A DNA stretch of 64,000 bases from Candidatus Lindowbacteria bacterium RIFCSPLOWO2_12_FULL_62_27 (GTDB lineage Bacteria; Lindowbacteria; 2-12-FULL-62-27). Position numbers and translations under genes: made by a program. Under the pieces are notes generated by a model, which was not told where the DNA came from, searched no databases, and worked only from the letters and a program-made list of their open reading frames with translations. Of this stretch, positions 45,615 to 59,363 are shown piece by piece. How positions within the stretch are numbered: position 1 is the stretch's first letter; each line of letters opens with the position of its first letter. The DNA lies in contig MFPR01000026.1 of the NCBI GenBank assembly GCA_001784175.1, positions 124,001 to 188,000 on the forward strand, in the 5' to 3' direction.

Positions 45615-45699
45615 TGCCGGGAGGGAGATTTGAACTCCCACGAGGTTGCCCCCGCCAGCCCCTCAAGCTGGTGCGTCTGCCAAATTCCGCCATCCCGGC
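45615..45699 (-). tRNA. tRNA-Leu (anticodon GAG), rebuilt by the mobile element
   Basis: 85 bases on the minus strand: acceptor GCCGGGA/TCCCGGC, discriminator A, anticodon stem CCAGC/GCTGG around TTGAGGG (anticodon GAG), a long variable arm as in leucine tRNAs, and T-arm GGGAG-TTCAAAT-CTCCC. No encoded CCA. Positions 1-42 (from the 5' end through the anticodon loop) are within the 44-bp repeat shared with the right end of the element. Positions 43-85 are chromosomal. The promoter now upstream belongs to the element. Confidence 0.93.
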
Positions 45700-45701
45700 G
45701 C
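45658..45701. repeat. Left attachment repeat (att)
   Basis: 44 bp identical to 59320-59363. It covers the 5' half of tRNA-Leu including the anticodon loop plus two bases upstream of the tRNA. Identity stops at 45657 inside the anticodon stem, placing the crossover at or near the anticodon loop. Confidence 0.93.
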
Positions 45702-45717
45702 GGTAGAAACTCAAAGC

Positions 45718-45745
45718 ATTATACACGGTCTACGTCTTTTCACAA
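45718..45745 (-). promoter_or_regulatory. Element-borne promoter driving tRNA-Leu
   Basis: On the minus strand TTGTGA (45745-45740), 16 bases, then a perfect TATAAT (45723-45718), about 18 bases before the tRNA 5' end. It lies inside the element. Its -35 box includes the stop codon of the integrase gene. Confidence 0.7.
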
Positions 45746-46942
45746 ACCGGCTTGATGCAAATTTGATGGAAGTTTCTGCGCCCGCAATCTATCCAAGTAG
45801 TCATCAAATTTCACCATGTCCTCCTTCATCGTCGTATCATGAATCACGTAATAGCGGCTGGTAACGTCTTTCTTTCTTCGTCCATGTCCGAGGATGGAAC
45901 GTAGAACCAGCTCCCGACCACCAGCGTTAGCGAAGCACGTTGCAAACGTGTGGCGGAAATCGTGCGTTCGGTAATTGAACTCCTCCGGGTTCATCGCCGC
46001 CCTGATGATTGCAGGCTCGAAAATATGCCGCCCCTTTTTCAGCATCTCGTGATAACGATAGTCGAACGTATCATAACTCCCGTAGTTCTGTCCTCGGTCG
46101 TTCGTGACTACGAATTCGGACATACTGATTACCTTACCCGACAGATAGGGTTCAAGATGGCGTGAAATCGGGACAATCCGATTGCTTCCCCATTTCGGCT
46201 GTCTTGTGCTGGTGTTGTGTGGGTCGCCCCGCTTGTTCATCCACTGCCCTGCGATTCGAAGACAATTGTTCTTCCTATCGACGTACCTCCATTTCAGACC
46301 GAATGATTCACCCAGTCTCAGTCCCGCGAAACAACCAAGCGCAATGACCAACTTCGTAGGTAGTGGAGGCAAATCCAAATCGAGCAGTGCGAACAATTCG
46401 CTGGGCAGTAGCGCAACGTCGACGTAATCGTTCGTCTGCAAGCGTCCGTGCAATGTCACAGGATTGACCCGTGCCGCGTTTTCTCGGATTGCAAGTTTGA
46501 AAGCTAAACCGAGAGCCGTGAGATAGCCGTTGATCGTTGATGGCATCCTCCCTTTTTTCAAAAGAGACTCGACAAATCGTGCCACGTGCTCTTTTGTATC
46601 AATGACTGCCACTGGTTCGTTCCTCCCGAAAAACTCGGCGGCCTCGCTCAAGCTATGAATGTTGCTCTGCGCCACCACCGGATGAAGTTTTCCAGCGGCA
46701 ACCCTTCCGTCCCTCTCCTCCTTGAAAGGCTTCATCAGTTCCGACCACGTCATCCGACGAAAAGGTTCAGACCCGTGCAATTCAATGGTGCGAAGTCGGA
46801 CAAGAAAGTCCTGAAGATATCGTTCCGCCTGCCGTCGGTCGGCGCATCCCGTCGAATGATACGACCAGCGACCTCGTAATGGATGTCGATAGTAAATATG
46901 GTATGTCCCGCCTTTTCCACGCTTGCAAAGTTTCGCCCTCAT
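45740..46942 (-). CDS. int: Tyrosine-family integrase (left end)
   Basis: 400 residues. An N-terminal arm/core-binding region (residues ~1-175) precedes the catalytic domain with Arg209 (AGLRLGES), His327-X2-Arg330 (THDFRHTFAT), His353 (LGHGRRKKD) and the nucleophile Tyr364 or Tyr365. The gene ends next to the att core, the classical place for the integrase that acts on it. It starts one base after the excisionase-like gene. Its last codons overlap a repeat (45752-45776) that recurs at the right end and may be an arm-type binding site. Confidence 0.93.
   Translation of the reverse strand: MRAKLCKRGKGGTYHIYYRHPLRGRWSYHSTGCADRRQAERYLQDFLVRLRTIELHGSEPFRRMTWSELMKPFKEERDGRVAAGKLHPVVAQSNIHSLSEAAEFFGRNEPVAVIDTKEHVARFVESLLKKGRMPSTINGYLTALGLAFKLAIRENAARVNPVTLHGRLQTNDYVDVALLPSELFALLDLDLPPLPTKLVIALGCFAGLRLGESFGLKWRYVDRKNNCLRIAGQWMNKRGDPHNTSTRQPKWGSNRIVPISRHLEPYLSGKVISMSEFVVTNDRGQNYGSYDTFDYRYHEMLKKGRHIFEPAIIRAAMNPEEFNYRTHDFRHTFATCFANAGGRELVLRSILGHGRRKKDVTSRYYVIHDTTMKEDMVKFDDYLDRLRAQKLPSNLHQAGL
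45752..45776. repeat. Candidate integrase arm site, left
   Basis: 25 bases starting TTGATGCAAA and containing TTGATG twice. It matches 22 of 25 bases at 59169-59193 in the same orientation. Both copies are inside the element, near its ends. Confidence 0.55.
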
Positions 46943-46943
46943 C

Positions 46944-47429
46944 TCACGCCGCCTCTCTGAGCGTCGGTCGAAGGGTTCGGCGGCCCTTTGTCATCAAGCC
47001 ATCAATCCAACTGTTGATATCGGTCAGCCGAAAGCGGACAAAATTGCCGATGTGGAAATTCGGGATATAGTTCTTGGATACCCATCCCTGAATAGTTCGG
47101 GGAGATACATTAAAGAATTTGGCAACTGTTTCCGTGTCCATGATGTCGGTGTCCACGTCGACCGAGTACCGCATTTGCTCGGCAGAAGCAAATCGACCAA
47201 CTGGATGTCTCTGATACCAACCGTTATCCGAAAGCGTTCGCACAACGCCTTTGAATTGAACGTCGTCGAGCGTATCACCCTGCACGCCCAGACGCCGCCA
47301 CGCATCGTCAACGTCCGCTTCGAATAAAAGAGCCGCCCTCGAATCCAATTTCTTGAACTCAAAAAACTCTTCGACATCGCGGCGGCTGTGTTCTACCGAA
47401 TTCTTTTCTTTCTCTTTTTTCTGAGACAT
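46944..47429 (-). CDS. Excisionase-like HTH protein
   Basis: 161 residues from ATG 47429 (AAGGTGGG upstream; GTG 47444 is also possible). The N-terminal half is charged and unrecognised. The C-terminal ~65 residues (TETVAKFFNVSPRTIQGWVSKNYIPNFHIGNFVRF, about residues 98-132) form a MerR-like winged helix typical of excisionases and small phage regulators. Its place immediately upstream of the integrase in the same transcript supports an excisionase (Xis) role. Confidence 0.75.
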   Translation of the reverse strand: MSQKKEKEKNSVEHSRRDVEEFFEFKKLDSRAALLFEADVDDAWRRLGVQGDTLDDVQFKGVVRTLSDNGWYQRHPVGRFASAEQMRYSVDVDTDIMDTETVAKFFNVSPRTIQGWVSKNYIPNFHIGNFVRFRLTDINSWIDGLMTKGRRTLRPTLREAA

Positions 47430-47580
47430 GCTCCCACCTTCCACCCCACGTATGTGGGTGTCGGTTGGAGATCGTCACTGCGAATAAAATTTATCGGCTC
47501 GCCCCGGCGTAACCGGGTTTCAAGCGCAGACCTCTTCGTTCCCGGCCACGCCGGGATTAAAATCTATTCCCTATTTCCCC
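47430..47580. other. Spacer with three hairpins upstream of the excisionase-like gene
   Basis: Three small inverted repeats: CCCAC/GTGGG near 47443-47456, CCCGG/CCGGG near 47503-47516, and a perfect TCCCGGC/GCCGGGA at 47540-47556. Spacing is irregular (about 59 and 38 bases). They could be operators or leader-RNA structures controlling xis and int. Confidence 0.5.
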
Positions 47581-48057
47581 CTACCCCACTCCCCTCGCCC
47601 GACCAAACGGCGTGAGCCATACCTCTCCGCTCTCCACGCACGTCGGTTTTGGCGTGGACGGCTGGATACTCTGGCATACCGTCTGCTCGCTTTCTTTCTG
47701 CGTTGTCGATGGCGGTATTTCCTTCCCCCACCGTTTTAGTGCTTTCATGCGATTCTGCTCTCGCCGTGCGTCTAGCTTCGCCTCCGCCTCCCGACACCGT
47801 TCGCCGAGATACCACTCCATTCCAGAGACGAGGATTCGCACCTGACCGCCTTGATGGTGGACGGGCAACGACTTCTCTCTATGCCATTTCTTCAAGCACG
47901 AAATACTCAGGCGGCAATACGTGGCGATTGCAATCCATCCGACCAACTCAGGCGGGCGGACATACCGCGTCTTGGGCACTGGCGGTTCTGGCCGCCTGAG
48001 TTTTCGGATGTCTCGTTTAATCTCCCGTAGTTCTTCGCGGGGCATTTTCTCAGTCAT
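47581..48057 (-). CDS. HTH DNA-binding protein
   Basis: 158 residues from ATG 48057. A charged N-terminus (MPREELREIKRDIRKLRRPEPP) precedes a winged-helix segment (ELVGWIAIATYCRLSISCLKKWHREKSLPVHHQGGQVRI, about residues 38-77) that resembles excisionase/small-terminase type HTH domains. A coiled, basic helix follows (EAEAKLDARREQNRMKALKRW) and a Ser/Thr/Pro tail. It could be a regulator or a replication accessory protein. No terminase large subunit is present, so a packaging role is unlikely. Confidence 0.65.
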   Translation of the reverse strand: MTEKMPREELREIKRDIRKLRRPEPPVPKTRYVRPPELVGWIAIATYCRLSISCLKKWHREKSLPVHHQGGQVRILVSGMEWYLGERCREAEAKLDARREQNRMKALKRWGKEIPPSTTQKESEQTVCQSIQPSTPKPTCVESGEVWLTPFGRARGVG

Positions 48058-48170
48058 TCTTGCCGCCACAAAATGAAGTCGAGCCTGAAGTCGACTTCCG
48101 TTCGGCGTGGGCGGGTGAAGTCGGCTTCGGCTCGGTCGGCGAGAGATGGAAGCGGGCGGGCATGTTCAAT

Positions 48171-49970
48171 CTACCAGCGACGTTTGTTGGTCTGTGCATT
48201 CCGAAGAGCATCCTTCTCGTCGTCGGTCAATTCTCGAAATTTCGCCTTGTCGCCTTCGAAATACAACTTCGTCTGACCGCCGGGATTGTTTCGAGACAGC
48301 ACCACACGCACGAGCGTCACAGGCGAGAGAATCTCCTGCGTGTCTTGATATTCGTTCTGATCGTCGTTGACCGTGATCCGACGGTGGAGAATAACGGCGG
48401 TGTCACAGTCTGTCGCCAGACTCGACGAGTCCCTCATGTCCTCAGCTTCGATGATTTTGTCGGCGTCGGTCTTTCGAGTCTGGACGATCACCATGATTGG
48501 TATGCCCAGTTCCATCGCCAAGAGTTTGAAATCCTTGCTTACCGCCCCCGTCTCCTGCGTGACATAGCGTGGATCACGGACGAGAAATTGAAGATTGTCG
48601 AAAACGACAAATTCTATTCCGTACCGTTTGACTGCGGCGCGAATTGTATTCATGACACCTTCGCGTGTTACTCCCAGCGTGTTGAATCCAAAATACAGCG
48701 GCACATCCACAAGCTCGGCTAAACATTGCGATGCTCGACGGTGGTCGATTTCGGATTCTGTGATCCCATATTCCATTTGAAGCGTGCGCTTCACCAAAGC
48801 CACGGGCGGCATTTCAAGACAGTAGACGAGAACGGGAACAGGCGGGTCTCTACGAACAAGATTCCACGCAATGTTGATGGTCATGGTTGTCTTGCCGACC
48901 TTTGGTTTCGCCGATACCATAATCACATCGCCAGCTTTCATTTTGCCCATGATGCGATTCACATTTTCCCACGGAGTTTCAAGACCAATGCCGTCACCAA
49001 CAATTGTGTTCTCCAGAACCTGCTCCATCGCTTGAGTGTGACTCACAATATTCTGGACTTCGGGTTGCTTGGCAGAGTCCAACAAATCGGACAGTTTGAT
49101 TCCCTTTTGCAGAGCCTCATTTGCATCGTTGATCCCGTCTGGGAAATTCACGATGAAGCATCGGGAGATGTCAAGACGGTCGGCGAGTTTCCCGACGGCC
49201 TTTCGACCCGGCGCATCGTTGTCATATGCGAGATAAATCTTTTTCATATCCTTGAGTTGATCGAGCCACTCTGCGGCGAATCCTTCGCACCCTGTCGTCG
49301 ACGACACAACACTTTTTACTCCGTTCTGCCACCATGACATCGCACAAAATTCGCCCTCCGCGATCACCACTGACTCACAATCTTCTTTCAGGGCTACATC
49401 GGCATGGAAAAGAATACTCTTGCATCCAGTGATTCGTCGAAAACGTGCCTCGGCGTCGGTAGCGATAATCCTCCGATATTTCACGTTGACCAATTTCTCG
49501 TCCTCAAAGTGTGGGATGGCGATCCACTCGTCGCCTTTGACATCTACCTCCAAGCCCAGCGCAAAATACGATATTGTTTCGTCGTTCAGCCCACGACTAT
49601 GAAGATAATCCATCCCTCGGCGAGAACTTGCCAATCTCTTCTGCGCCTCAGTGACATCAAACTTCGGCGTTACATACTTTACCCTGCCCGCGACATTCCC
49701 TACCGAAGCCACCTGTCCGTTTCTCCGGAATCTCTGTCCAAGCGTAATGAGGTTTCCCTTTTCGCCGCACACTTTGCAATCCCACTGTCCGTTTAAGCGA
49801 TTCATATACATTTTCCAGTTGGTATTTCCGCAAAACGGACACGTCTGGATCACGAATTGATCGCCTGTCCCACCTTTGTAATTGACCCCGTGCGTCCGAA
49901 GAAAATTTTCTGGTGTCTCGTTCACAACATTGTGCCGCAAATCTCTTGGCGCAGTTACCTCATTGCTCAT
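48171..49970 (-). CDS. Primase-helicase of phage T7 gp4/Twinkle type
   Basis: 599 residues combining three modules. A zinc ribbon (Cys44, Cys47, Cys65, Cys68) recognises primer sites. A TOPRIM primase core has Glu205 (VVIAEGEFCA) and the acidic DND at 250-252 (AYDNDAPGRKA). A RecA-type replicative helicase has Walker A AKPKVGKTT (Lys360) and Walker B VVFDNLQFL, followed by VIVQTRKTD. It would prime and unwind the element's own DNA, so the element can probably replicate after excision. It lies just downstream of the replication-initiation-like gene, with a 1-base gap. Confidence 0.92.
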   Translation of the reverse strand: MSNEVTAPRDLRHNVVNETPENFLRTHGVNYKGGTGDQFVIQTCPFCGNTNWKMYMNRLNGQWDCKVCGEKGNLITLGQRFRRNGQVASVGNVAGRVKYVTPKFDVTEAQKRLASSRRGMDYLHSRGLNDETISYFALGLEVDVKGDEWIAIPHFEDEKLVNVKYRRIIATDAEARFRRITGCKSILFHADVALKEDCESVVIAEGEFCAMSWWQNGVKSVVSSTTGCEGFAAEWLDQLKDMKKIYLAYDNDAPGRKAVGKLADRLDISRCFIVNFPDGINDANEALQKGIKLSDLLDSAKQPEVQNIVSHTQAMEQVLENTIVGDGIGLETPWENVNRIMGKMKAGDVIMVSAKPKVGKTTMTINIAWNLVRRDPPVPVLVYCLEMPPVALVKRTLQMEYGITESEIDHRRASQCLAELVDVPLYFGFNTLGVTREGVMNTIRAAVKRYGIEFVVFDNLQFLVRDPRYVTQETGAVSKDFKLLAMELGIPIMVIVQTRKTDADKIIEAEDMRDSSSLATDCDTAVILHRRITVNDDQNEYQDTQEILSPVTLVRVVLSRNNPGGQTKLYFEGDKAKFRELTDDEKDALRNAQTNKRRW

Positions 49971-49971
49971 A

Positions 49972-50925
49972 CTACCGCCCCCTCGCCGCCTCTTGGCGAT
50001 CTTTGTGAAGTTTTTTCAGTGCCAGTGCCTCAGCATCTGGCATTCTCGGCGGCCTTGAATTGCCGCCCACATATTTCTTTCCGGGGTCCCACCGATTGTT
50101 GTCCAGCCCACAGAGATGGTCTGGGTCAGATAAAAACCATTCCAATGATGTCTTGGGTTCTTTATTCAGAATGAAATCATTTGTCGCCATTCTAACGAAT
50201 AGTTCCCGCCATTCGGCAAGTGTGAGTCTCGCTATCCGCGCCGTGTCCAGACACTGTTTTCGTTTCGTTCGACCGATTCCAAATCGCGATGCCATCTTGG
50301 GCATGATTTCGTTCCATAAATCCTGCAAAATCCCCAAATCCGTTACGGGTCGCTTACCATCGTCCACGAAGTCGACTTCGCCAACCGGCGGCACACCTTG
50401 GGGTAGGTCGATTTTTATCTTTTCTCCAGAAGAGGGGGGTTCCAAAAAGTCGCCGTCCGACCGACGGTCATTCTCTTCTATACTATTCTCTTCTATTCTA
50501 TAGGGGGCTGACATCATGCTGACATCATGTATGACGCTGTCGTTGCCTTTGTTCTTTTTCCGATATTTTTTACTGGCTTCCCGCCAGTGTTGTCTCGTCG
50601 TTTTCCGACTTTCCAAGAAATCGTGATAAAAATCCCATTCCTCCCTCGGTAACCGAAAACGGTCACCATCTTTCTCCAAGAAGCCGACCTTGCCCATGTC
50701 TTCGAATATGCCCTGTAAGTCCATGGCAAATATTTCTCTCGCAAGAACTTCGAGGGACAATTCAGGCAAATATCCGGCATCGCTATTTTCGTTGAGCCAG
50801 TCGTGCAGAATGTGAACGAGCGCAAGTGATTCGAGCTTACTGATGCTACGAATCGTGGCAAGTTTCACTGTGCGGAGGTCATGGTCGAGTCCGTATCTGG
50901 ACGGACGCCAGTCATCGCGCTTCAT
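49972..50925 (-). CDS. Replication-initiation/replisome organiser-like protein
   Basis: 317 residues from ATG 50925, preceded by GGAGG at 5 bases. An N-terminal winged-helix-like region (residues ~10-110, with LALVHILHDWLNENSDAG and EFDMGKVGFLEKDGDRFRLP-like layout) is joined by a polar linker (residues ~130-195) to a C-terminal region with RFGIGRTKRKQCLDTARIARLT and TSLEWFLSDP. This layout and its position before the helicase resemble phage replisome organisers (DnaD/O type) that recruit helicase to an origin. The family assignment is by architecture and context only. Confidence 0.65.
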   Translation of the reverse strand: MKRDDWRPSRYGLDHDLRTVKLATIRSISKLESLALVHILHDWLNENSDAGYLPELSLEVLAREIFAMDLQGIFEDMGKVGFLEKDGDRFRLPREEWDFYHDFLESRKTTRQHWREASKKYRKKNKGNDSVIHDVSMMSAPYRIEENSIEENDRRSDGDFLEPPSSGEKIKIDLPQGVPPVGEVDFVDDGKRPVTDLGILQDLWNEIMPKMASRFGIGRTKRKQCLDTARIARLTLAEWRELFVRMATNDFILNKEPKTSLEWFLSDPDHLCGLDNNRWDPGKKYVGGNSRPPRMPDAEALALKKLHKDRQEAARGR

Positions 50926-51019
50926 ATTGACCTCCGTTACTTGCAGAGGGGACTCCACGACTCAGGTGGGTTGGTGCACTGAAAAATTCTACGAGATAAG
51001 GGGACACGTACCGCCGCAT
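50912..51019 (-). CDS. Short upstream ORF coupled to the replication gene
   Basis: 35 codons from ATG 51019 (AGGAG 10 bases upstream) to a TGA inside the first codons of the replication-initiation-like gene. It starts MRRYVSPYLVEFFSAPT. The 14-base overlap with the downstream start would couple translation. It is small and unrecognised, so it may be a leader ORF or chance. Confidence 0.35.
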   Translation of the reverse strand: MRRYVSPYLVEFFSAPTHLSRGVPSASNGGQYEAR

Positions 51020-51082
51020 GTAAATCACGCTCCTAAACCATATTGGTCGACTCCTTCTCCGATTTTTTGCTTCTTATCCCAC

Positions 51083-51133
51083 AAAAAACCCGGCTGTCTT
51101 GGGTGCTCACGACAAGGCGTGAGACAGCTCGGG
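51083..51133 (-). terminator. Attenuator-like terminator in the replication operon leader
   Basis: On the minus strand CCCGAGCTGTC (from 51133) pairs with GACAGCCGGG (to 51089) with one bulged base. An inner stem CTCACG/CGTGAG (51105-51110 and 51118-51123) sits in the loop, and six T follow (51088-51083). It lies between the candidate promoter and the first replication gene, so most transcripts would stop here unless antitermination occurs. Confidence 0.65.
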
Positions 51134-51194
51134 GTCAAGCATGAATTCTGAATTTGATCTTCGTGAACACCCTGTTTCTTTTGCTACGATCAGA

Positions 51195-51222
51195 GTGTTA
51201 CAAATCGAAGCGCGGTTGTCAA
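51195..51222 (-). promoter_or_regulatory. Candidate promoter of the replication/integration operon
   Basis: Minus strand TTGACA (51222-51217), 16 bases, then TAACAC (51200-51195). The -10 box is weak, so an activator may be needed. Next feature downstream is the attenuator-like hairpin. Confidence 0.45.
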
Positions 51223-51335
51223 TACAAATCAAAAAATATATTTTTGTAACCCCATGATATAGAATGACTTGACATTTTGAAAACGACTCCCTCGCCCTCG
51301 CCGCTCCCGCTCCCGCCTCGACCTCCTCCGCCGAG

Positions 51336-51369
51336 AAAAAAACAAGCGGGTCGTGTGAACCCGCTTGTT
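51336..51369 (-). terminator. Rho-independent terminator of the secreted-protein operon
   Basis: AACAAGCGGGT (51369-51359 on the minus strand) pairs perfectly with ACCCGCTTGTT (51351-51341) around a 7-base loop, and the stem runs into seven T (51342-51336). It lies 39 bases after the small zinc-motif ORF, ending the leftward transcript that comes from the cargo genes. Confidence 0.85.
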
Positions 51370-51407
51370 CCCATGCGCTGACAGGCGTTCGTTCCAATAT
51401 CTTACTA

Positions 51408-51506
51408 TCAAATTTTGTCAGCGAATAAAACCTCCGCAATCTGTGCCGTTCGCCGCCGCTTTTTTGTTTCGGCGCAGAACGGACATGTCTTCGTGTCGTC
51501 GCTCAT
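51408..51506 (-). CDS. Possible 32-residue zinc-motif peptide
   Basis: ATG 51506 overlaps the stop of the large secreted-protein gene (ATGA). The product begins MSDDTKTCPFCAETKKRRR and has one Cys-X2-Cys pair followed by a basic stretch. It looks like the first half of a zinc ribbon. Coupling and position before the terminator support it, but the size makes it uncertain. Confidence 0.4.
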   Translation of the reverse strand: MSDDTKTCPFCAETKKRRRTAQIAEVLFADKI

Positions 51507-54286
51507 CTCACGACCGCCAATTTTTCGACGAGCGTGTTCCCGCCGCTCTCCAGCTTGTAAATGTAGACACCAGAGCCTACCTTCTGCCCATTCTTGTCCG
51601 TCGTGTCCCATGTCAGATTATTTGTTCCCGCCGATCCTGACGCACTCAACTCTCGCACCAGCCGACCGCCAACGTCGAAGATTTTGATCGAAACGTCTGC
51701 GGCGGCGGGGAGGTTGAATTTAAACGTCACGATGTCAGTAGCCGGGTTGGGAAACGCAAACGACAGATCTCTTGAGAGTGGCGACGCCAGAAACGGAGCC
51801 AAGTATTCCGGAAGTCCGACCGCCAACGTCAATGCTGTTGCCGATGAGACCAGAGCCGAAGACGCCGTCCGCAAATTCACAGCCCCGCCCGACGTGCCCA
51901 GCAGGTACGCCTCATACTGCGTCGGCAGGTTCTGGACGTTGTCCCACGTCAGCGTCGTGACTCCCATATCCGAAGCGACCAGCACGTCCCACGTCTTGCC
52001 CGCCGTAATCGGTTCGGCATAGGACGCCGCCATCCATTCTTGTGTTCCTTGTGGTCGCACGGCGGTGGACACGTAGCCAGCGGCGACCGGCGGTGCTTCC
52101 AATGCTGACGCCGCCCGGCGTTCGCCCGGAGTCGACTTCACCCCAATATAATTTTGCCAGTCACTTAATCCGGCGGACGTGGCTATAAGTTGAACCGCCC
52201 ATTCGTTGTCCAGCGGCTGACCATATCCGGCGGACAAATATGCCGGAGCCTGATTGAGTATCTCCGTCGCATACGTCTCCGGACTCGTCGGATTTGGCAG
52301 GATGAACATCGTGCAGGATTGATTCGCCTTCACCCAGAATCCCACCATGGGCTTGAGTCCCATCGTGACCAACGACGGCGTCTCACTCGCCGGAGCGTAA
52401 ATGTAATTTGAGCCAGTATACCAGTAGACCTTATTCTGAATGGCATTCGATGCGCCCGCCTGCGCCGGTGTCAGCCTTTGGCTTTGCGGAAGCGCAGTAT
52501 CGTTAACGCCGGACGTGTCGAAGGTAACACCGGAGTCCCAGCTCACGTAGAAGTATTGTCCCGACGCCACCTGGTTCCACCCGACCCGTAAACGCACTTG
52601 CACCGTATCGGATGTGGCGAATCCATCCGAAGGGACGAACACACGCCCACCTGTTCCGTCCTTGACCCAGTAAGCACGACCACGGACTGCGTCGCCGCCG
52701 GGGACGGCATATTTTGTGCCGTTCAGACTCGAATTGTCCGCCGCATTGGCGTCCCACTCGTAAACCGTGGCGTTTGGTAAGCCGCCGGTCGTGCTTTTGA
52801 GATTCCATCCGGCCGGATTTTTATTTGCTCCAACCATGCGCCAGCCCAATCCCAATGTGTTCCCGCCTGCTGGCACGTCCCTACCGTCCGCATATACCGT
52901 AAACACGACCGACTTCGCCGGAGTCACGCTATCGTTTCTGGCTTCGACCCTATAGACTCCCGCCGCCGTGCCCAGTGTGAGCGTGTCCGTCGCATAGCCG
53001 GAGGCGTCCGTGTAGACCGTAGGAGACGAAAGACTCCCGGAGCCGTGCGTGACGGTGAACGTGACCCTTGCTCCCATCACACCGTTGCTCCCTCCGGTGT
53101 CGACCACACGGACGGTCAACGGCAATGCCGCCGACGGTGCGCCCAAGGCGTGATTACCGCTCACAATCACAATCGTGTCAGGCGGTGACGGAAGAACGAT
53201 GGGATTGATTCGGAACACATCGTCTGACGTGTCCGCCGTCGCCGCGTCCGTCGCGCTCACGATCCGAACTTTTGCTTGCGTCGTGTTCAGGTTCGGCACA
53301 GACCACACATACGATCCGGTATTCGTGGTGGACGCAACAATGCTCGACCAAGTCATGCCAGAATCGCTTGAATATTCCAGCCGCACCGTTGATATCGTCC
53401 CTGTATTTGACCACGTCACCGTCTCCGTCGTGCCCGCCTGAAACGAATCGCCGCTATTTGGTCGTGTGAGCGTGAACCCGCCACGAATGGCAAAATTCGC
53501 ATCAGACGTGTCGAACCCTACACCATCCGACACACGGGCACGAATGCCGGTAGCTATTGAATCCGGCACTGTCCACGCATAGCTCCCAGAGTTCGCCGTC
53601 GACGCTGTGATGACGTTCGGGAATGTGAATCCGCTATCGGTTGAATAGTCCAGACGGACGGAGGATATTGTTCCCGTCGATGTCCAAGTAACCGTCCGAG
53701 CATCACCGACCGTCCATATCTCCCCACCGTTCGGGGATGTGAGGCTGAATCCTCCGGCAATCCTGAAATTTGCATCCGACACATCAAGCACGTTGGCGTT
53801 CGCCGAATCCGATACACGGACACGAACGTATTGGCTGATTGAATCAGGGATGTTCCACGCAAAATTTCCGCTATTGGCGGTGTAGGAAATCAGATTCGGG
53901 AACGTCGAACCGCTATCCGTGCTGAATTCTATTTTCACGTTCCCGATACCGGACACCGTCGTCCACAATATATTTTTCGCCGTGCCAACGGCGAGAGTCT
54001 CCCCGCCGTTCGGTGATGCTATGGCAATCGTATCGTCGCCGAACCGTAGGTTATAGATGAAACCATTTTTGGAGACGAACGATGTGCTGGTCATCGTGTC
54101 TATTGCCGGTTGCCCAGCGGAGCCTAACAACCGAAAACTTAGTGATGAAATGCTGTCGCCGCCGTTATCATTGACGGAGACACGAATCTTGAAATTTGAT
54201 GAGGTCATCGACGAATATGACGAACTCGCCTGCACCAACAGAATGCAGATGATTAATGCCCTCTTGCATAAGTCCTGGAAGAACAA
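51503..54286 (-). CDS. Large secreted multi-domain beta-sandwich protein
   Basis: 927 residues with an N-terminal signal sequence (ALIICILLVQASSSYS). Three homologous ~88-residue Ig-like repeats lie at about 91-176, 184-267 and 275-360, each starting with a SPNGGE/RPNSGD-type motif and ending DTSDANFAI or similar. A bacterial Ig-like (Big) domain follows at about 370-465, then a large unrecognised region with GLGWRMVGANKNP and VGWNQV. The last ~80 residues (FAFPNPATDIVTFKFNLP, IKIFDVGGRLVREL, SGVYIYKLESGG) are an FlgD-like/type IX-sorting-like C-terminal domain. It is probably exported and attached to the surface or released. Such a protein is unexpected on a small replicating element. Co-transcribed with the gene upstream. 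Confidence 0.8.
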   Translation of the reverse strand: MFFQDLCKRALIICILLVQASSSYSSMTSSNFKIRVSVNDNGGDSISSLSFRLLGSAGQPAIDTMTSTSFVSKNGFIYNLRFGDDTIAIASPNGGETLAVGTAKNILWTTVSGIGNVKIEFSTDSGSTFPNLISYTANSGNFAWNIPDSISQYVRVRVSDSANANVLDVSDANFRIAGGFSLTSPNGGEIWTVGDARTVTWTSTGTISSVRLDYSTDSGFTFPNVITASTANSGSYAWTVPDSIATGIRARVSDGVGFDTSDANFAIRGGFTLTRPNSGDSFQAGTTETVTWSNTGTISTVRLEYSSDSGMTWSSIVASTTNTGSYVWSVPNLNTTQAKVRIVSATDAATADTSDDVFRINPIVLPSPPDTIVIVSGNHALGAPSAALPLTVRVVDTGGSNGVMGARVTFTVTHGSGSLSSPTVYTDASGYATDTLTLGTAAGVYRVEARNDSVTPAKSVVFTVYADGRDVPAGGNTLGLGWRMVGANKNPAGWNLKSTTGGLPNATVYEWDANAADNSSLNGTKYAVPGGDAVRGRAYWVKDGTGGRVFVPSDGFATSDTVQVRLRVGWNQVASGQYFYVSWDSGVTFDTSGVNDTALPQSQRLTPAQAGASNAIQNKVYWYTGSNYIYAPASETPSLVTMGLKPMVGFWVKANQSCTMFILPNPTSPETYATEILNQAPAYLSAGYGQPLDNEWAVQLIATSAGLSDWQNYIGVKSTPGERRAASALEAPPVAAGYVSTAVRPQGTQEWMAASYAEPITAGKTWDVLVASDMGVTTLTWDNVQNLPTQYEAYLLGTSGGAVNLRTASSALVSSATALTLAVGLPEYLAPFLASPLSRDLSFAFPNPATDIVTFKFNLPAAADVSIKIFDVGGRLVRELSASGSAGTNNLTWDTTDKNGQKVGSGVYIYKLESGGNTLVEKLAVVR

Positions 54287-54310
54287 TTTAGTGTGTATGG
54301 ACAGCCTCTA

Positions 54311-55441
54311 TTATTTGGATATCCAACATCGAAATGAGAATAAAGCAGTCCTAGGAGTGGCTGTGGCATCAGCGAATATATAATCCAATGAATTGGTCTG
54401 AGTCGTAGCGACAGTGAAGGTCTGCCTATCCATCCCGAAGTCGGATAGCCACTCTCTGTCATCAAGTTTATTCAACAGCGAATAATTATTCATTGACACG
54501 TACCACTCTGCGGCGGTTGGCAGTCTTCCCCCATACTTAACAAAACACGTATTCGTTGCGTTAAACCATGAATCTGTGCCCTCTTCGTCGGTCTGCATAC
54601 AACCTAACTGATAGCCAGCAGATTTTATGCTCGTAAAATTTACCGGACATATAATCTCCAGCAATGCTGTCGGATTTGTGACGCCGATCCCTACATAGGC
54701 TGAATCAGATGAAATCACAAAAGTGCCCGTTTGATTGGTAGCAGTAACATTGAACAATCCGATAGGATTTGATGTGCCCAATGTCATATTACCACTTGTA
54801 CTAACGAATGCCGTTGCCGTTACTGTGCCGCTCACGTCTAATGCAGTAGCCGGATTAAGCTTCCCAATGCCGACATTGCCGCTCTCTTTCACAGTCAATG
54901 CTGTGTCCTGCACGGTAAATGTGTCCCGGACTCTGACGTTGCCTGCCACATCCAGTTTCGCCCCCGGATTGGACGTGCCTATACCGACCTTGCCGCTCAA
55001 TGTCGCTGTCTCCGCCACCGTGAACGCACCGGATGCTTGTGCGGAGCCAGCCAAAAATGCGGCGGTGTCCGCATAAAGAGCATACGGCGAGGACATCAGT
55101 CTCCGGCGTGGTGTCATTTCCGCATCACCGGCGACGGTAATGCCAAGCCAATACTGGGTATCAAACGGCAACGACAACGCCGTCACACTTCCAAGCTCCA
55201 CGTCGAAGACGCCGCTTGTGACGGACACCGATGACTGCGCTTCGGTCCACAACGCCGACCCGCCGGACGGGACGTTATACAACTTGAAAGTCATCGCATA
55301 CGTTCCTGTCAGGCGTGCGCCGACGGAATCAGTAAGCTGACCCTGAAATGAAATCAGGCGTGGTGCGGATGCGGTTGCAGATATAGCAAGCGACATCGTC
55401 AGGAATAAAAAAATTGAACCGATTCTGCTGGTTTTAGTCAT
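54311..55441 (-). CDS. Secreted fibre-like protein with C-type-lectin-like end
   Basis: 376 residues with a signal peptide (IFLFLTMSLAISATASA). Residues ~27-125 form a beta domain (LISFQGQLTDSVGARLTGTY). Residues ~150-262 contain repeats of the VGIGTSNPGAKLDVAG type (near 152, 190 and 250) known from beta-helical tail fibres and secreted proteins of Bacteroidetes-like bacteria. The C-terminal ~110 residues have paired cysteines (265, 281, 299, 373), GGRLPTAAEWYVSM and a final FRC, which fits a C-type-lectin/formylglycine-enzyme-like fold used for ligand binding. GGAGGT precedes the ATG. Probably an adhesin or receptor-binding protein. Confidence 0.75.
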   Translation of the reverse strand: MTKTSRIGSIFLFLTMSLAISATASAPRLISFQGQLTDSVGARLTGTYAMTFKLYNVPSGGSALWTEAQSSVSVTSGVFDVELGSVTALSLPFDTQYWLGITVAGDAEMTPRRRLMSSPYALYADTAAFLAGSAQASGAFTVAETATLSGKVGIGTSNPGAKLDVAGNVRVRDTFTVQDTALTVKESGNVGIGKLNPATALDVSGTVTATAFVSTSGNMTLGTSNPIGLFNVTATNQTGTFVISSDSAYVGIGVTNPTALLEIICPVNFTSIKSAGYQLGCMQTDEEGTDSWFNATNTCFVKYGGRLPTAAEWYVSMNNYSLLNKLDDREWLSDFGMDRQTFTVATTQTNSLDYIFADATATPRTALFSFRCWISK

Positions 55442-55487
55442 GTCTGATACCTCCGAGTTTTAATTTTTGTTGCGTGGCGTCACGCCC

Positions 55488-56030
55488 CTATCTATTTGAA
55501 TAAAAATAGATGTCAGCGTTTGTATGCAACCCAATGCACTTCCGCAAGGATTCGGCAGGTGCAGAACGGCTCCCTTGCCCTCCGCGAAAGACTCCTCTTA
55601 TTCCCCACTCCACTTTTTTCCTGCCTTTGATATTTTTCAGTTCGGGATTGACCAATAAGGATTGTCGGATTAGAAATTTCTCAAGCTTTCTTATATGTGT
55701 CTCATTTATTCGTCCTTGCTTTTTCGGGGATGTCAAAATGAAAAGTACGGGGGTTCCCTTACGTTCGGCAATTATCGGAGCGATAAAACGAACTATATTA
55801 CGGTCATTCAACGCTTCGTCTTTAAAAGTTCTCAGAGTCATTCCCACGTAATACGGCGTCAGTCCTTTTGTTCGAATGGCGAAAACATAACAGCCTTTTC
55901 TCCCTGCGATATCCTTACGACCTGCCCAAAAAAGTTCCCTTGTCGTATCGGTCATTCCCCGCGTCTTCTTATCTAAGGGAATCTCAAAGGGTCCATGAAC
56001 ATCGAACATTGTTATGCGGGTGTTTGACAT
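55488..56030 (-). CDS. GIY-YIG nuclease-like protein
   Basis: 180 residues from ATG 56030, the first start that leads directly to family-like sequence (the frame is open to 56204 but that part is non-conserved and overlaps structured DNA). GCYVFAIR at 46-53 and YYVGMT at 60-65 correspond to the GIY...YIG strands, Arg67 to the conserved catalytic arginine, and Glu117 (RKLEKFLIRQ) to the metal-binding glutamate. Such domains occur in homing endonucleases, restriction enzymes and repair nucleases. Here it could protect the element or act on competitor DNA. Confidence 0.7.
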   Translation of the reverse strand: MSNTRITMFDVHGPFEIPLDKKTRGMTDTTRELFWAGRKDIAGRKGCYVFAIRTKGLTPYYVGMTLRTFKDEALNDRNIVRFIAPIIAERKGTPVLFILTSPKKQGRINETHIRKLEKFLIRQSLLVNPELKNIKGRKKVEWGIRGVFRGGQGSRSAPAESLRKCIGLHTNADIYFYSNR

Positions 56031-56419
56031 TTTTCTCAGGTGGGTCTGCGACAAATCCCGGCTTGTTTCCATGCCCTGCCTCCGACAAAAAAGGGACGAG
56101 GATGCCGTCCAGTTTTGTGTCACCAGCGAGGTTGCACAGACAGGACTCCCTTTCGGGATGTTGGCATCTCCGCCCCACACATAGTCGATGTGGAGACAGA
56201 GCATTCCTGTCCGTGCATAAAAACATTATGGTCGCTGGTGACACCTCTGCGGCACAAAGCCGCAACGCCCACATCTTCGCACACCTCGCCCTGTGCGGCA
56301 AGGTCGGATTTTCGTCGGGGGCGGGAGAGGACACTATGTGCGGGCGGCGCGGATCGCCGTCGACCCCCGCCACGGCGTGGAAAACGCCATCCACGGAGGC
56401 GGCTGGGGCTGGCGAACAG
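56031..56419. other. Non-coding, highly structured stretch upstream of the GIY-YIG gene
   Basis: No convincing gene on either strand. Nested inverted repeats dominate: GTGTCACCAGCGA (56117-56129) with its complement at 56232-56244, inside it TGCACAGACAGGA against TCCTGTCCGTGCA (12 of 13 pairs, the odd pair becoming G-U in minus-strand RNA), and inner CCACA/TGTGG. Beside these are TGCGGC/GCCGCA around 56247-56263 and GGCGT/ACGCC near 56375-56389. This suggests a folded RNA of 130 bases or more, or a replication origin. Confidence 0.55.
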
Positions 56420-56689
56420 TCAGAGAATCAAAAAACTGTTGTGCTCTATGTCGAGCCGATGTACATCATGTTTGGATAGTGTGTTCCCCTGCGAGATGTA
56501 TAGACGGTCACCGCACTGTGGGTTGCCCTTTTCAGGCGAGCGGGGTTGTTTTGACCCGCTCGATTTTTTTCCCCACTCGCCGCCGTAGTCGACCTTCATC
56601 GAGCGCAAGACCGCCACGTCTTTCGGCGTTTCGGGCGTGAGGATTTTGAATTCCCTCCCATCCTCCGCGATGATTATTGTTTCTCTCAT
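56420..56689 (-). CDS. Hypothetical small protein
   Basis: About 89 residues from ATG 56689. It starts MRETIIIAEDGREFKILTPE, a plausible small beta domain, while the second half is rich in Ser/Gly/Lys and overlaps a plus-strand terminator-like hairpin, so the true C-terminus may be shorter or frameshifted. No family recognised. It follows the upstream small gene with a short overlap region. Confidence 0.45.
   Translation of the reverse strand: MRETIIIAEDGREFKILTPETPKDVAVLRSMKVDYGGEWGKKSSGSKQPRSPEKGNPQCGDRLYISQGNTLSKHDVHRLDIEHNSFLIL
56537..56570 (+). terminator. Plus-strand terminator-like hairpin inside the element
   Basis: CGAGCGGG (56537-56544) pairs with CCCGCTCG (56555-56562) and is followed by ATTTTTTT (seven T, 56564-56570) on the plus strand. 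All recognised element genes run the other way, so it would end an antisense or non-coding transcript coming from the structured region at 56.1-56.4 kb. Confidence 0.6.
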
Positions 56690-56694
56690 GGCTC

Positions 56695-57012
56695 TCACCA
56701 CTTCGGCGATTCGCCACGCTCCTCCATTTGCTTCCCCACCAATTCATACTCGTCCCATTCTTTCGACCAAGTTGCTTTGATCTTCCCAAGTTCGACCAAG
56801 TCCGCACAGGACGCAAGCTCAGCCAAACGTCTGACAAAGCCGCCCCCATACTTATGCATGGCGGCGATTGTCCATCGGCGGCGTTCGAATTCTTCATCGC
56901 GTTCTTTCATTTTACGTCGCCTCATCCGTGCAACAATCCGAAGCCAATTCTTGTTGACAGGGTCGGCGTCGATGTTGATGATTTTCTCGTCGTCGCTCGC
57001 ATCGTCGCTCAA
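56695..57012 (-). CDS. Hypothetical charged helical protein
   Basis: 105 residues from TTG 57012, which overlaps the stop of the upstream gene (TTGA). The protein is acidic at first (SDDASDDEKIINIDAD) and then strongly basic and helical (RIVARMRRRKMKERDEEFERRRW). No family recognised. The length and overlap suggest a translated gene of the accessory block. Confidence 0.55.
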   Translation of the reverse strand: MSDDASDDEKIINIDADPVNKNWLRIVARMRRRKMKERDEEFERRRWTIAAMHKYGGGFVRRLAELASCADLVELGKIKATWSKEWDEYELVGKQMEERGESPKW

Positions 57013-57428
57013 TCGGCTTCGTCCGCCTTGAAAATGGTTATCACGGGTTCGAGATTGTCCCCACCGTGGCACTGCGCCCGAAGCAGAACCGGGACCGGCG
57101 GCTTGTTCGGCGTCATTACGAAGAGCGGTGCGATCCTCACAATGTCCGTCGATCCCGACGCCGATTTGATTGCGTATCGCAAAATCGTCAGCATGTCCCA
57201 GCATCGTCCGACCGTGTCAGTTTCTGGGATATCATTTCGTTCGAGGACATCGTGCCACACGGCTGATGTCACGCAGAGCGAAAATTTTATCCCGACCTCA
57301 CGCGCCAACTCGGATATGTCGAGAAGTGTTCCATCCCGGATCGCGTCCGCCCGCGTGAAGGCATAGATGAGGTCCGACTCGTTGAATATTGACTCGGAGC
57401 GGACTGCTATCGTTTCTGTGTTAATCAA
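57009..57428 (-). CDS. DUF6573-like protein of mobile elements
   Basis: 139 residues from TTG 57428, with GGAGG 8 bases upstream. The core DLIYAFTRADAIRDGTLLDISELAREVGIKF and VTSAVWHDVLE resembles a small family often seen on plasmids and integrative elements (residues ~17-65). Function is unknown in the family. The assignment is from recognition of the pattern and should be verified. Confidence 0.6.
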   Translation of the reverse strand: MINTETIAVRSESIFNESDLIYAFTRADAIRDGTLLDISELAREVGIKFSLCVTSAVWHDVLERNDIPETDTVGRCWDMLTILRYAIKSASGSTDIVRIAPLFVMTPNKPPVPVLLRAQCHGGDNLEPVITIFKADEAD

Positions 57429-57444
57429 TCTGACCACCTCCAGT

Positions 57445-57762
57445 TTATTTCTCGTAGTTCCACGCTTGTGCCCGCCGCATGATGTCCCATACGGCGTGAT
57501 ATACCGCCGCTCGTTTTCCGTCGACGATGCTCGCCTTGAAGTTCCCATAGTCAATCGCTCTGATTCGTCTGGCGATTCCATCGGCTACCACGTCCTCATC
57601 GATGGACGCACGGAATGGATAATCAAATTTTGGAGTCTGCCTGACTCTGGCGGTTGGAAATATTCGACCGATGTCGCGGGGGAAGCGGCTTCTTACCAGC
57701 AAATTCTTTTTATTCGATTCATCTCGCACGATACTCAAAAAACTGTCCGCAAATATCCACAT
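57445..57762 (-). CDS. Hypothetical protein
   Basis: 105 residues, no family recognised. The C-terminal third (DGKRAAVYHAVWDIMRRAQAWNYEK) is helical with aromatic and basic residues. It lies between the RHH gene and the DUF6573-like gene, all facing left, in the element's accessory block. Confidence 0.5.
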   Translation of the reverse strand: MWIFADSFLSIVRDESNKKNLLVRSRFPRDIGRIFPTARVRQTPKFDYPFRASIDEDVVADGIARRIRAIDYGNFKASIVDGKRAAVYHAVWDIMRRAQAWNYEK

Positions 57763-57775
57763 GGCGTTTCTCCTG

Positions 57776-58006
57776 TCACTTCATTGGTCGCCCCACCTTT
57801 AACTCTCCCGTGCGTTTCTGGAATTTGCCACGTCGTTTCTTTTCCAAGCTGTCCACCGCCTCCGTAAGCGCACACTCTGTAAGTTCGGACAGCGTCAGCC
57901 CCGGCGTCCAGAACACGGCGTTCTTCACGCGGTCGATGATGTCGGTCGATACGTGGATCGTCAGGCGTTCTTTTTTCGGCTTCTCAGTCTTCGCGTTGGG
58001 CTTCAT
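57776..58006 (-). CDS. Ribbon-helix-helix regulator-like protein
   Basis: 76 residues. ERLTIHVSTDIIDRVKNAV forms a beta strand and helix, and LTLSELTECALTEAVDSLEKKR the second helix, as in ribbon-helix-helix DNA-binding dimers. The motif AVFWTPGLTLSEL and the end GELKVGRPMK resemble small plasmid and phage proteins, some linked to partition. It probably regulates the accessory genes or acts in segregation. Confidence 0.65.
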   Translation of the reverse strand: MKPNAKTEKPKKERLTIHVSTDIIDRVKNAVFWTPGLTLSELTECALTEAVDSLEKKRRGKFQKRTGELKVGRPMK

Positions 58007-58055
58007 GTCTTCTCCGTTATTTTCCTTACGATAATGCGTGTTTTGTTAAAGATAG

Positions 58056-59045
58056 TCATACGCTCGCCGCCACAAGACTGGCTACATCCCCAGCCAAGTC
58101 CGTGCGGTTATCGTCGTAGGCATATAGTGTCCGAACATCCTTATGCCGCGAAAATCTTTGTACAGCCCTGACATTCCCGTTCGTCAAATCCAGCGCGGTC
58201 GTAATAGCTTCGTGCCTGACGCCGTGTGGTCGGACTCGCACACCTGCTTTATCTCCCAACTCTCGTATAACCAGATACAGCCCCGTTCCTGTTATACGAT
58301 TGCCCTTTCCCGTTCCACCATGAATTAAATTGGTGAACAGTGCCCCCGGCTCTGGACCACGGACATCAAGCCACGCTTGAACAGCCAACTTGGTTTTGTC
58401 AGGTAGTGTCAGATTCAATTTTTGTGTCTGTCCTTTTCCGAGCACGGCAATTGTCCCGGCGTTCGTGTCCACGTCGTCCACGTCCAACGACACGATCTCG
58501 CCCCGTCGAAGACCAAGTCCATGCAGGAGTCGCAGAATCGCACGGTCACGAATGCCTTTCCTGTCATTACGGTTCTCCAACTTCAACAAAAGAGACCTCA
58601 CACCTTCCCTGCCGGGGCCACGGGTGTCACGATATTTTTCTGCTTTCAGGTTCTCGACCTCCAGCCGCCACTGGACGATGCCCAGAGTAGACGCCAGCTT
58701 CACCAGAGACCGCAAAGCCGCCAGCCGTCGATTGATGGTCGTCGCTTGGAGACCCTTCTGGATCAGGTCGGATTTGTATGCAAGAGCCAGACCGTTCGCC
58801 TCGCCGTTCCCACGTGACAATAGAAGCCGTGCGGCATCGTCCAGCGTTCCCGAACCGACAAACGACCGGAAGCCTTCAAGGTCTTGGCGGTATGCTCGGA
58901 TCGTCCGCTCGTTTCTGCCCGACAAGAAGGCGGAGACCAGAGCGGCGGCGTCTGTGCGGCGGGTTGCTATAAAGGTGAAGTTGGCTTCCTGTGGGGTGAT
59001 GGTGGTTGGTTCTGATTTAACGAGCGTTGCGGTAACCATGACCAT
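58056..59045 (-). CDS. Second tyrosine recombinase (XerC/D-like)
   Basis: 329 residues with an N-terminal SAM-like core-binding domain (NERTIRAYRQDLEGFRSFVG, INRRLAALRSLVKLA) and a catalytic domain carrying Arg180 (LGLRRGEI), His274-X2-Arg277 (RPHGVRHEA), His301 (SRHKDVRTLYAY) and nucleophile Tyr310. It differs clearly from the integrase at the left end. It may resolve dimers, invert or move part of the element, or be left from a second insertion. Confidence 0.9.
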   Translation of the reverse strand: MVMVTATLVKSEPTTITPQEANFTFIATRRTDAAALVSAFLSGRNERTIRAYRQDLEGFRSFVGSGTLDDAARLLLSRGNGEANGLALAYKSDLIQKGLQATTINRRLAALRSLVKLASTLGIVQWRLEVENLKAEKYRDTRGPGREGVRSLLLKLENRNDRKGIRDRAILRLLHGLGLRRGEIVSLDVDDVDTNAGTIAVLGKGQTQKLNLTLPDKTKLAVQAWLDVRGPEPGALFTNLIHGGTGKGNRITGTGLYLVIRELGDKAGVRVRPHGVRHEAITTALDLTNGNVRAVQRFSRHKDVRTLYAYDDNRTDLAGDVASLVAASV

Positions 59046-59319
59046 CTATATAGTAACAAAAGGGAACGTTTATGTCAAAAGGGGGTGCTTTCAGGGCTGT
59101 TTGAGAGTCAAGGCGTTAGAATATTTGTTTCCCATGCACTCGGTAGACGCCTACAAGCCCTCGAAAATTTGATGCAAAGTTGATGGAGATTTCGGACGAA
59201 ACGGACGGTAGACAGGTGCGGATAGAAGGTATGCGGTTGCGGATTGACCTGATTGACAGTCAGGCGGTTAGGTTGGGATGCCTGTGCAAATTAAGGAGTA
59301 ATGAAAAATGCCGTTCTTC
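59046..59319. other. Right-end non-coding arm of the element
   Basis: 274 bases between the second recombinase and the right att repeat with no gene that can be supported. It holds the arm-site candidate at 59169-59193. Its minus strand there reads PSTLHQ in the frame matching the left integrase C-terminus (PSNLHQ), so it might be a relic of an integrase 3' end. Confidence 0.55.
59169..59193. repeat. Candidate integrase arm site, right
   Basis: Matches 22 of 25 bases with 45752-45776 in the same orientation, 127 bases inside the right att repeat. The left copy is 51 bases inside its repeat. Confidence 0.55.
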
Positions 59320-59363
59320 GCCCCTCAAGCTGGTGCGTCTGCCAAATTCCGCCATCCCGGCGC
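59320..59363. repeat. Right attachment repeat with orphan 5' half of tRNA-Leu
   Basis: 44 bp identical to 45658-45701. Read on the minus strand it is the tRNA-Leu 5' half from the acceptor to just past the anticodon loop, then diverges into element sequence, so no complete tRNA can be made from it. Confidence 0.93.

Follow-up and report, generated by a model that had tools for sequence, protein, structure and literature searches.

A tRNA-Leu-integrated, satellite-like element of a Lindowbacterium carries genes for a predicted MAT-like fibre and an Ig-repeat protein that ends in a type IX sorting tail

Mosaic adhesive trimeric (MAT) fibres were described as the chromosomally encoded prey-recognition adhesins of the predator Bdellovibrio bacteriovorus; they combine a signal peptide, a conserved beta domain of about 130 amino acids, a trimeric shaft and a tip that is S74 or swapped, and in one of them, Bd2740, the tip is a C-type lectin (PMC10769870). 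Adhesin cargo on a satellite has a precedent in Bap of SaPIbov2 (PMC7785521), and fibre genes on elements free of capsid hallmarks have one in Charybdis, whose fibres are proposed to be virion parts (PMC12324425). Here we analyse a 64,000-nucleotide stretch (the window; contig MFPR01000026.1, positions 124,001 to 188,000, forward strand) of Candidatus Lindowbacteria bacterium RIFCSPLOWO2_12_FULL_62_27, in which an integrated element carries two adjacent genes, one for P2, a predicted MAT-like fibre, and one for P1, an immunoglobulin (Ig)-repeat protein with a sorting tail of the type IX secretion system (T9SS). Our searches of the open-access literature turned up no integrative element described as carrying a MAT-like fibre in a pair with a T9SS-tailed protein, and a MAT-like fibre as mobile-element cargo looks new.

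Both genes are long, intact open reading frames (ORFs) on the minus strand, exactly where a first-pass annotation made from the sequence alone had placed them (Table 1). P2 precedes P1 in the direction of transcription and starts with ATG, with a good ribosome site, GGAGG, 8 nucleotides upstream. Pfam offers no named family for P2. The NCBIfam profile NF053851 (Bdello_MAT_N) matches the whole protein with E 2.4e-9 (37 bits, profile positions 4-78 of 162) and its N-terminal part alone with E 2.1e-10 (41 bits). P2 relatives of the element lineage match the same profile at 7.8e-11 to 8.9e-7, all under the curated cut-off, and matches at E 1e-4 or better occur in 40 of the 386 genomes sampled. When a profile of 11 P2-family sequences was run against the PDB, it retrieved the MAT structures 8OND (9.4e-11), 8OML (4.9e-6) and 8OJN (8.7e-5); besides 8OND, four other MAT chains reached 0.03 or better. 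Part of this score stems from the shared GIGT-P-L-V repeat, so that the match is weaker than it appears. The GIG-type repeats already seen in the first-pass annotation also give weak matches to phage tail and tail-fibre PHROGs. Judged by the NF053851 and PDB profile matches, P2 is probably a distant relative of the Bdellovibrio MAT fibres. Structure prediction was confident for the N-terminal domain of P2 only (predicted local distance difference test, pLDDT, 81-92 over residues 31-110), and the modelled domain had no significant structural match in the PDB.

The tip of P2 has no Pfam match. A profile of three tip sequences placed the mannose receptor and FGE/SUMF1 proteins, which have the C-type-lectin fold, at the top with non-significant E-values of 0.09-1; motif and profile together make a C-type-lectin/FGE fold plausible, and the C-type-lectin-like end claimed earlier is kept at that strength. 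The same type of cysteine tip recurs at the C-termini of two YadA-head-repeat fibre ORFs of 1,101 and 2,617 amino acids in other genomes (L112, L113). Tips differ between proteins that share the P2 N-domain: S74, absent from P2, is found on a host paralogue (contig C4 of the host genome, G000; contigs are given as C numbers), a collagen-like region with a short cysteine end on C28 and on C188 of genome G001, an unlike sequence on C30, and the cysteine-containing tip on P2. A diversity-generating retroelement acting on the tip was considered and rejected: the element has no template/variable repeat, and no reverse transcriptase was recognised, no search specific for one having been made.

P1 carries at its C-terminus a sorting tail of the T9SS type A cargo kind. 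Its tail scores above the curated cut-offs of Por_Secre_tail (PF18962; 45.6 bits against 27), FlgD_ig (39.8 against 27) and TIGR04183 (43 against 23), and matches the solved PorU tail 6ZA2 at 1.3e-5. Together with the Kre9/KNH Ig-like repeats and the Big_1 domain, this bears out the Ig repeats and FlgD/type IX-like C-terminus first described for this protein. The TTG start of P1 lies 24 nucleotides past the stop of P2; the two genes share a frame, with TAA TAG between them. At each of the two N-termini a short run of basic residues precedes a hydrophobic 10-mer; the Kyte-Doolittle means are 2.99 and 2.37, compared with 1.7 or less in five other element proteins. The signal peptides proposed at first pass are thus supported by a hydropathy heuristic, not SignalP, and by an N-terminal layout shared with homologues. 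T9SS machinery was searched for in the host as PorV and SprA. The PorV family is above cut-off at several host loci and there is a partial SprA homologue; type IX export by the host is plausible on this basis. Separately, we observed PorV-family matches at about 18 places in the host genome, several of them adjoining genes with a P1-type sorting tail (C44, C31, C6, C21, C30). A P1-tail match also lies within an open frame of 22,286 amino acids (C2:43827-44054), and other P1-tail frames reach 7,200-9,114 amino acids; giant surface proteins seem common in this genome.

The pairing of such genes had been thought new to this element. It is instead a recurrent chromosomal feature: P1-like and P2-like genes are neighbours on C28 and C4 of the host, and in two sister genera of the host's family, on C83 and C188 of Candidatus Lindowbacteria nzgw232 (G001) and on C48 of the groundwater metagenome-assembled genome NC_groundwater_1274 (G002). 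In an unrelated genome (G065, L120 1-2007), a MAT_N-type gene is directly followed by a gene with the P1 N-domain, in the order seen on the element. Assuming that some 1% of random neighbours are P1-like, a rate that is our own estimate, pairing at 2 of 6 host loci would have a probability of about 0.0015. On a second tRNA-Leu-associated island (L019 1-19128, a stretch of host C30), a giant P1-N-domain gene comes after two genes of the P2 type, again in the order of the element. The island also has NYN proteins, a Mutator transposase and an integrase directly followed by a 40-bp piece of the tRNA-Leu(CAA) 5' half, which shares 95% identity with the intact gene of C14. We rejected the idea that C14 and C30 are two ends of one second element, as the tRNA copies would be inverted if the contigs were joined via the giant gene; the C30 end alone is claimed.

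In phylogenetic trees, P1 groups with G001 and G002 proteins (support 100/100), and P2 groups with the two C30 genes and one on G001 C89, not with host C28 or C4, in a short tree with many long outgroup branches. We rejected an origin by recent copying from the host chromosome, since the element genes belong to other subfamilies than the C28 and C4 pairs. The P2-type gene on G001 C89 lies near an ORF6N gene. As a side observation, a Lindowbacteria contig (L053 15-3288) combines a P2-type fibre gene with genes for an ORF6N protein and for one that is very weakly Cas4-like, another possible mobile context.

We consider it probable that the tRNA-Leu(GAG) satellite-like element carries a two-gene surface-conversion cassette, composed of an adhesive fibre with a swappable tip and an exported partner. 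P2 would be exported by its signal peptide and would trimerize into a MAT-like fibre, in which the conserved N-domain would lie close to the cell surface and a shaft of beta repeats would carry a C-terminal binding tip that can be exchanged. P1 would also be exported, its type IX sorting tail delivering it to the outer surface, where it may act beside P2 as an Ig-repeat rod. By displaying the two proteins together, the element would change what the host cell sticks to, with adhesion as the presumed benefit. Several observations weigh against this proposal. With 37-41 bits, the MAT_N score of P2 falls short of the curated cut-off of 60, and as a single sequence P2 finds 8OND only at E 0.5. The monomer model of P2 is unreliable past residue 117, and AlphaFold2 did not resolve the fold of the tip, which reached a pLDDT of 34 when modelled alone. 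P1 has no well-placed ribosome site at its TTG start and may be produced weakly. The host SprA match scores 69.9 bits against a cut-off of 200 and covers part of the profile only.

P1-like matches at about 20 host loci, P2-like ones at several, and decaying members of the P1 family (a 189-amino-acid remnant on C28, a copy with in-frame stops on G001 C319) are what one might see if P1 and P2 were passengers of no benefit to the element, acquired through recombination with the surface-gene families that abound in the host. We regard this as unlikely. Both element ORFs are intact and have nonsynonymous divergence (dN) of 0.15-0.26 from their relatives at high or saturated synonymous divergence (dS), so P1 and P2 are coding sequences under purifying selection and not chance ORFs, and constraint on both proteins argues against mere passenger genes. 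Their subfamilies are also unlike those of the host chromosomal pairs, and the second tRNA-associated island repeats both the gene types and their order. Less likely still is a role in superinfection exclusion, often mediated by the surface proteins of prophage-like elements, with the fibre or the Ig protein masking or shedding phage receptors. The element is phage-like in its replication genes, which would suit such a role, but PADLOC gave no match (an anti-phage system was rejected on the same result), and the two families are widespread chromosomal surface genes with no tie to phage receptors. Of the functions suggested at first pass, altered attachment is kept in the form of MAT-type adhesion, as the better-supported guess; phage-receptor blocking and the marking of element-bearing cells found no evidence here.

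It is very improbable that P2 forms a fibre on the particles or vesicles of a virus-like element that has escaped recognition, a role like that proposed for Charybdis fibres (PMC12324425), even though its GIG repeats match tail-fibre PHROGs, the replication module is phage-like and trimeric fibres have been proposed on elements without capsid hallmarks. Both proteins have predicted signal peptides, and none of the assigned ORFs was recognised as coding for a capsid, terminase, portal or baseplate protein. Their relatives are chromosomal or lie on non-viral islands; none was found in IMG/VR, and 50,697 phage records held no match to P1 and one to P2, at 22% and confined to the repeats. A virion fibre was rejected for P2, as in the first-pass annotation, because no linked virion or tail-assembly gene was recognised between the repeats and the relatives of P1 and P2 are cellular surface proteins.

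The element itself measures 13.66 kb between the two copies of its direct repeat (45658-45701 and 59320-59363; 44 bp, 100% identical), and its GC and GC at third codon positions (GC3) are lower than in the host genes checked. At tRNA genes it is usually the 3' half that is duplicated. Here the duplicated 44 bp are the 5' half of tRNA-Leu(GAG) plus 2 bp, which means that the element side supplies the 5' half of the intact tRNA-Leu and its upstream region. As in satellites, an integrase and a tRNA attachment site are accompanied by a replication module of the element's own, without a full virion gene set: Pfam and PHROGs searches recognised no capsid, portal, terminase, baseplate or tail-assembly gene among the assigned ORFs between the repeats. 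It is a fair description to call this a capsid-less, phage-satellite-like integrative element, in agreement with the first-pass annotation. We use the term satellite-like and do not file it as a satellite, because a true satellite needs helper dependence and no helper-phage packaging or interference gene was recognised in the main ORFs (PHROGs, Pfam, PADLOC). The ORF directly upstream of P2 had no significant family match in Pfam, PHROGs, NCBIfam or PADLOC searches; its stretch GCYVFAIR...PYYVGMT recalls GIY-YIG nucleases, a resemblance below family significance.

Table 1 Features of the integrated element and of the two surface-protein genes (window coordinates).
Feature	Position	Strand	Basis or remark
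Integrated element	45658..59363		bounded by perfect 44-bp direct repeat; assigned genes all on - strand
tRNA-Leu(GAG), intact, integration target	45615..45699	-	
int1, tyrosine recombinase	45740..46942	-	PF00589 8e-10; phrog_1 1.3e-43
Excisionase-like HTH_17 protein	46944..47444	-	domain/PHROG matches
Helix-turn-helix (HTH) protein	47581..48069	-	weak excisionase/regulator match
Phage-type primase-helicase	48171..49970	-	phrog_239 7.6e-75; DnaB_C + Toprim_2; 1048 phage records match
Replication-initiation / DnaD-like protein	49972..50958	-	phrog_2509 1.1e-4
P1, 927 aa, predicted secreted; Ig repeats and type IX sorting tail	51503..54286	-	
P1 T9SS type A / FlgD-like C-terminal tail, residues 845-925	51512..51754	-	Pfam, PorU-tail match, TIGR04183
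P1 Big_1 domain, residues 386-462	52901..53131	-	Pfam
P1 Kre9/KNH-like Ig repeats, residues 89-365	53192..54022	-	PNGGE-type motifs at 91, 184, 275
P1 N-terminal domain, residues 27-88	54023..54208	-	common to proteins adjoining P2-like genes elsewhere
P1 predicted signal peptide, residues 1-26, TTG start	54209..54286	-	hydropathy heuristic
P2, predicted MAT-like secreted fibre, 376 aa	54311..55441	-	
P2 C-terminal tip, residues 263-376	54311..54655	-	Cys 265, 281, 299, 372; homologous tips elsewhere
P2 GIG-repeat shaft, residues 131-262	54656..55051	-	PHROGs, family profile
P2 conserved N-terminal beta domain, residues 25-130	55052..55369	-	NF053851 (match 16-89) 2e-9 to 2e-10
P2 predicted signal peptide, residues 1-24	55370..55441	-	boundary between ATA and SAPR inferred from homologues
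ORF without assignment, directly upstream of P2	55488..56204	-	
DUF6573 protein	57009..57581	-	PF20213 5.1e-14
int2, second tyrosine recombinase	58056..59045	-	PF00589 7.2e-22; adjoins other repeat, end opposite int1

More broadly, small tRNA-Leu-targeting elements may serve among Lindowbacteria to spread swappable-tip MAT-like fibres, each together with an exported partner of the Ig-repeat kind, an idea that we advance only tentatively; if it is true, such elements would allow cell-recognition specificity to be traded horizontally within this group. The wide distribution of MAT relatives, the recurrent neighbour with a T9SS tail or P1 N-domain and the tRNA-linked cargo suggest a route for the exchange of fibre tips between bacteria, and the P1-type protein offers a concrete partner gene for MAT-like fibres.

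Compared with the described systems, P2 resembles MAT fibres (NF053851) in its predicted signal peptide, its related N-terminal beta domain and, by the family profile, its related GIG-type shaft, and also in that paralogues vary in their tips, S74 or other folds, with several copies per genome. It differs in falling under the NCBIfam cut-off, in its length of 376 amino acids against about 626-1,151 (PMC10769870), and in lying on a mobile element, paired with a T9SS-tailed Ig protein, in a host that is no known predator. P1 resembles T9SS type A cargo (TIGR04183 / PF18962) in a tail above the cut-offs, a predicted signal peptide and a host with PorV-family proteins, but its host is not a member of the Bacteroidota, the SprA match is partial and P1 itself is carried by an integrative element. 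Like SaPIbov2 with Bap (PMC7785521), the element is small and integrative, and its cargo includes a large multi-domain protein, here one predicted to be secreted to the surface; Bap, however, is a biofilm protein of Gram-positive bacteria that travels with an ABC transporter, whereas here a fibre is paired with an Ig protein, and no sequence relation is claimed. With Charybdis (PMC12324425) it shares the lack of capsid hallmarks, the trimeric fibre-like proteins and, for some of those elements, adjoining tRNA genes, but Charybdis are marine circles of about 4.6 kb with integrated copies in archaea and no comparable replication module.

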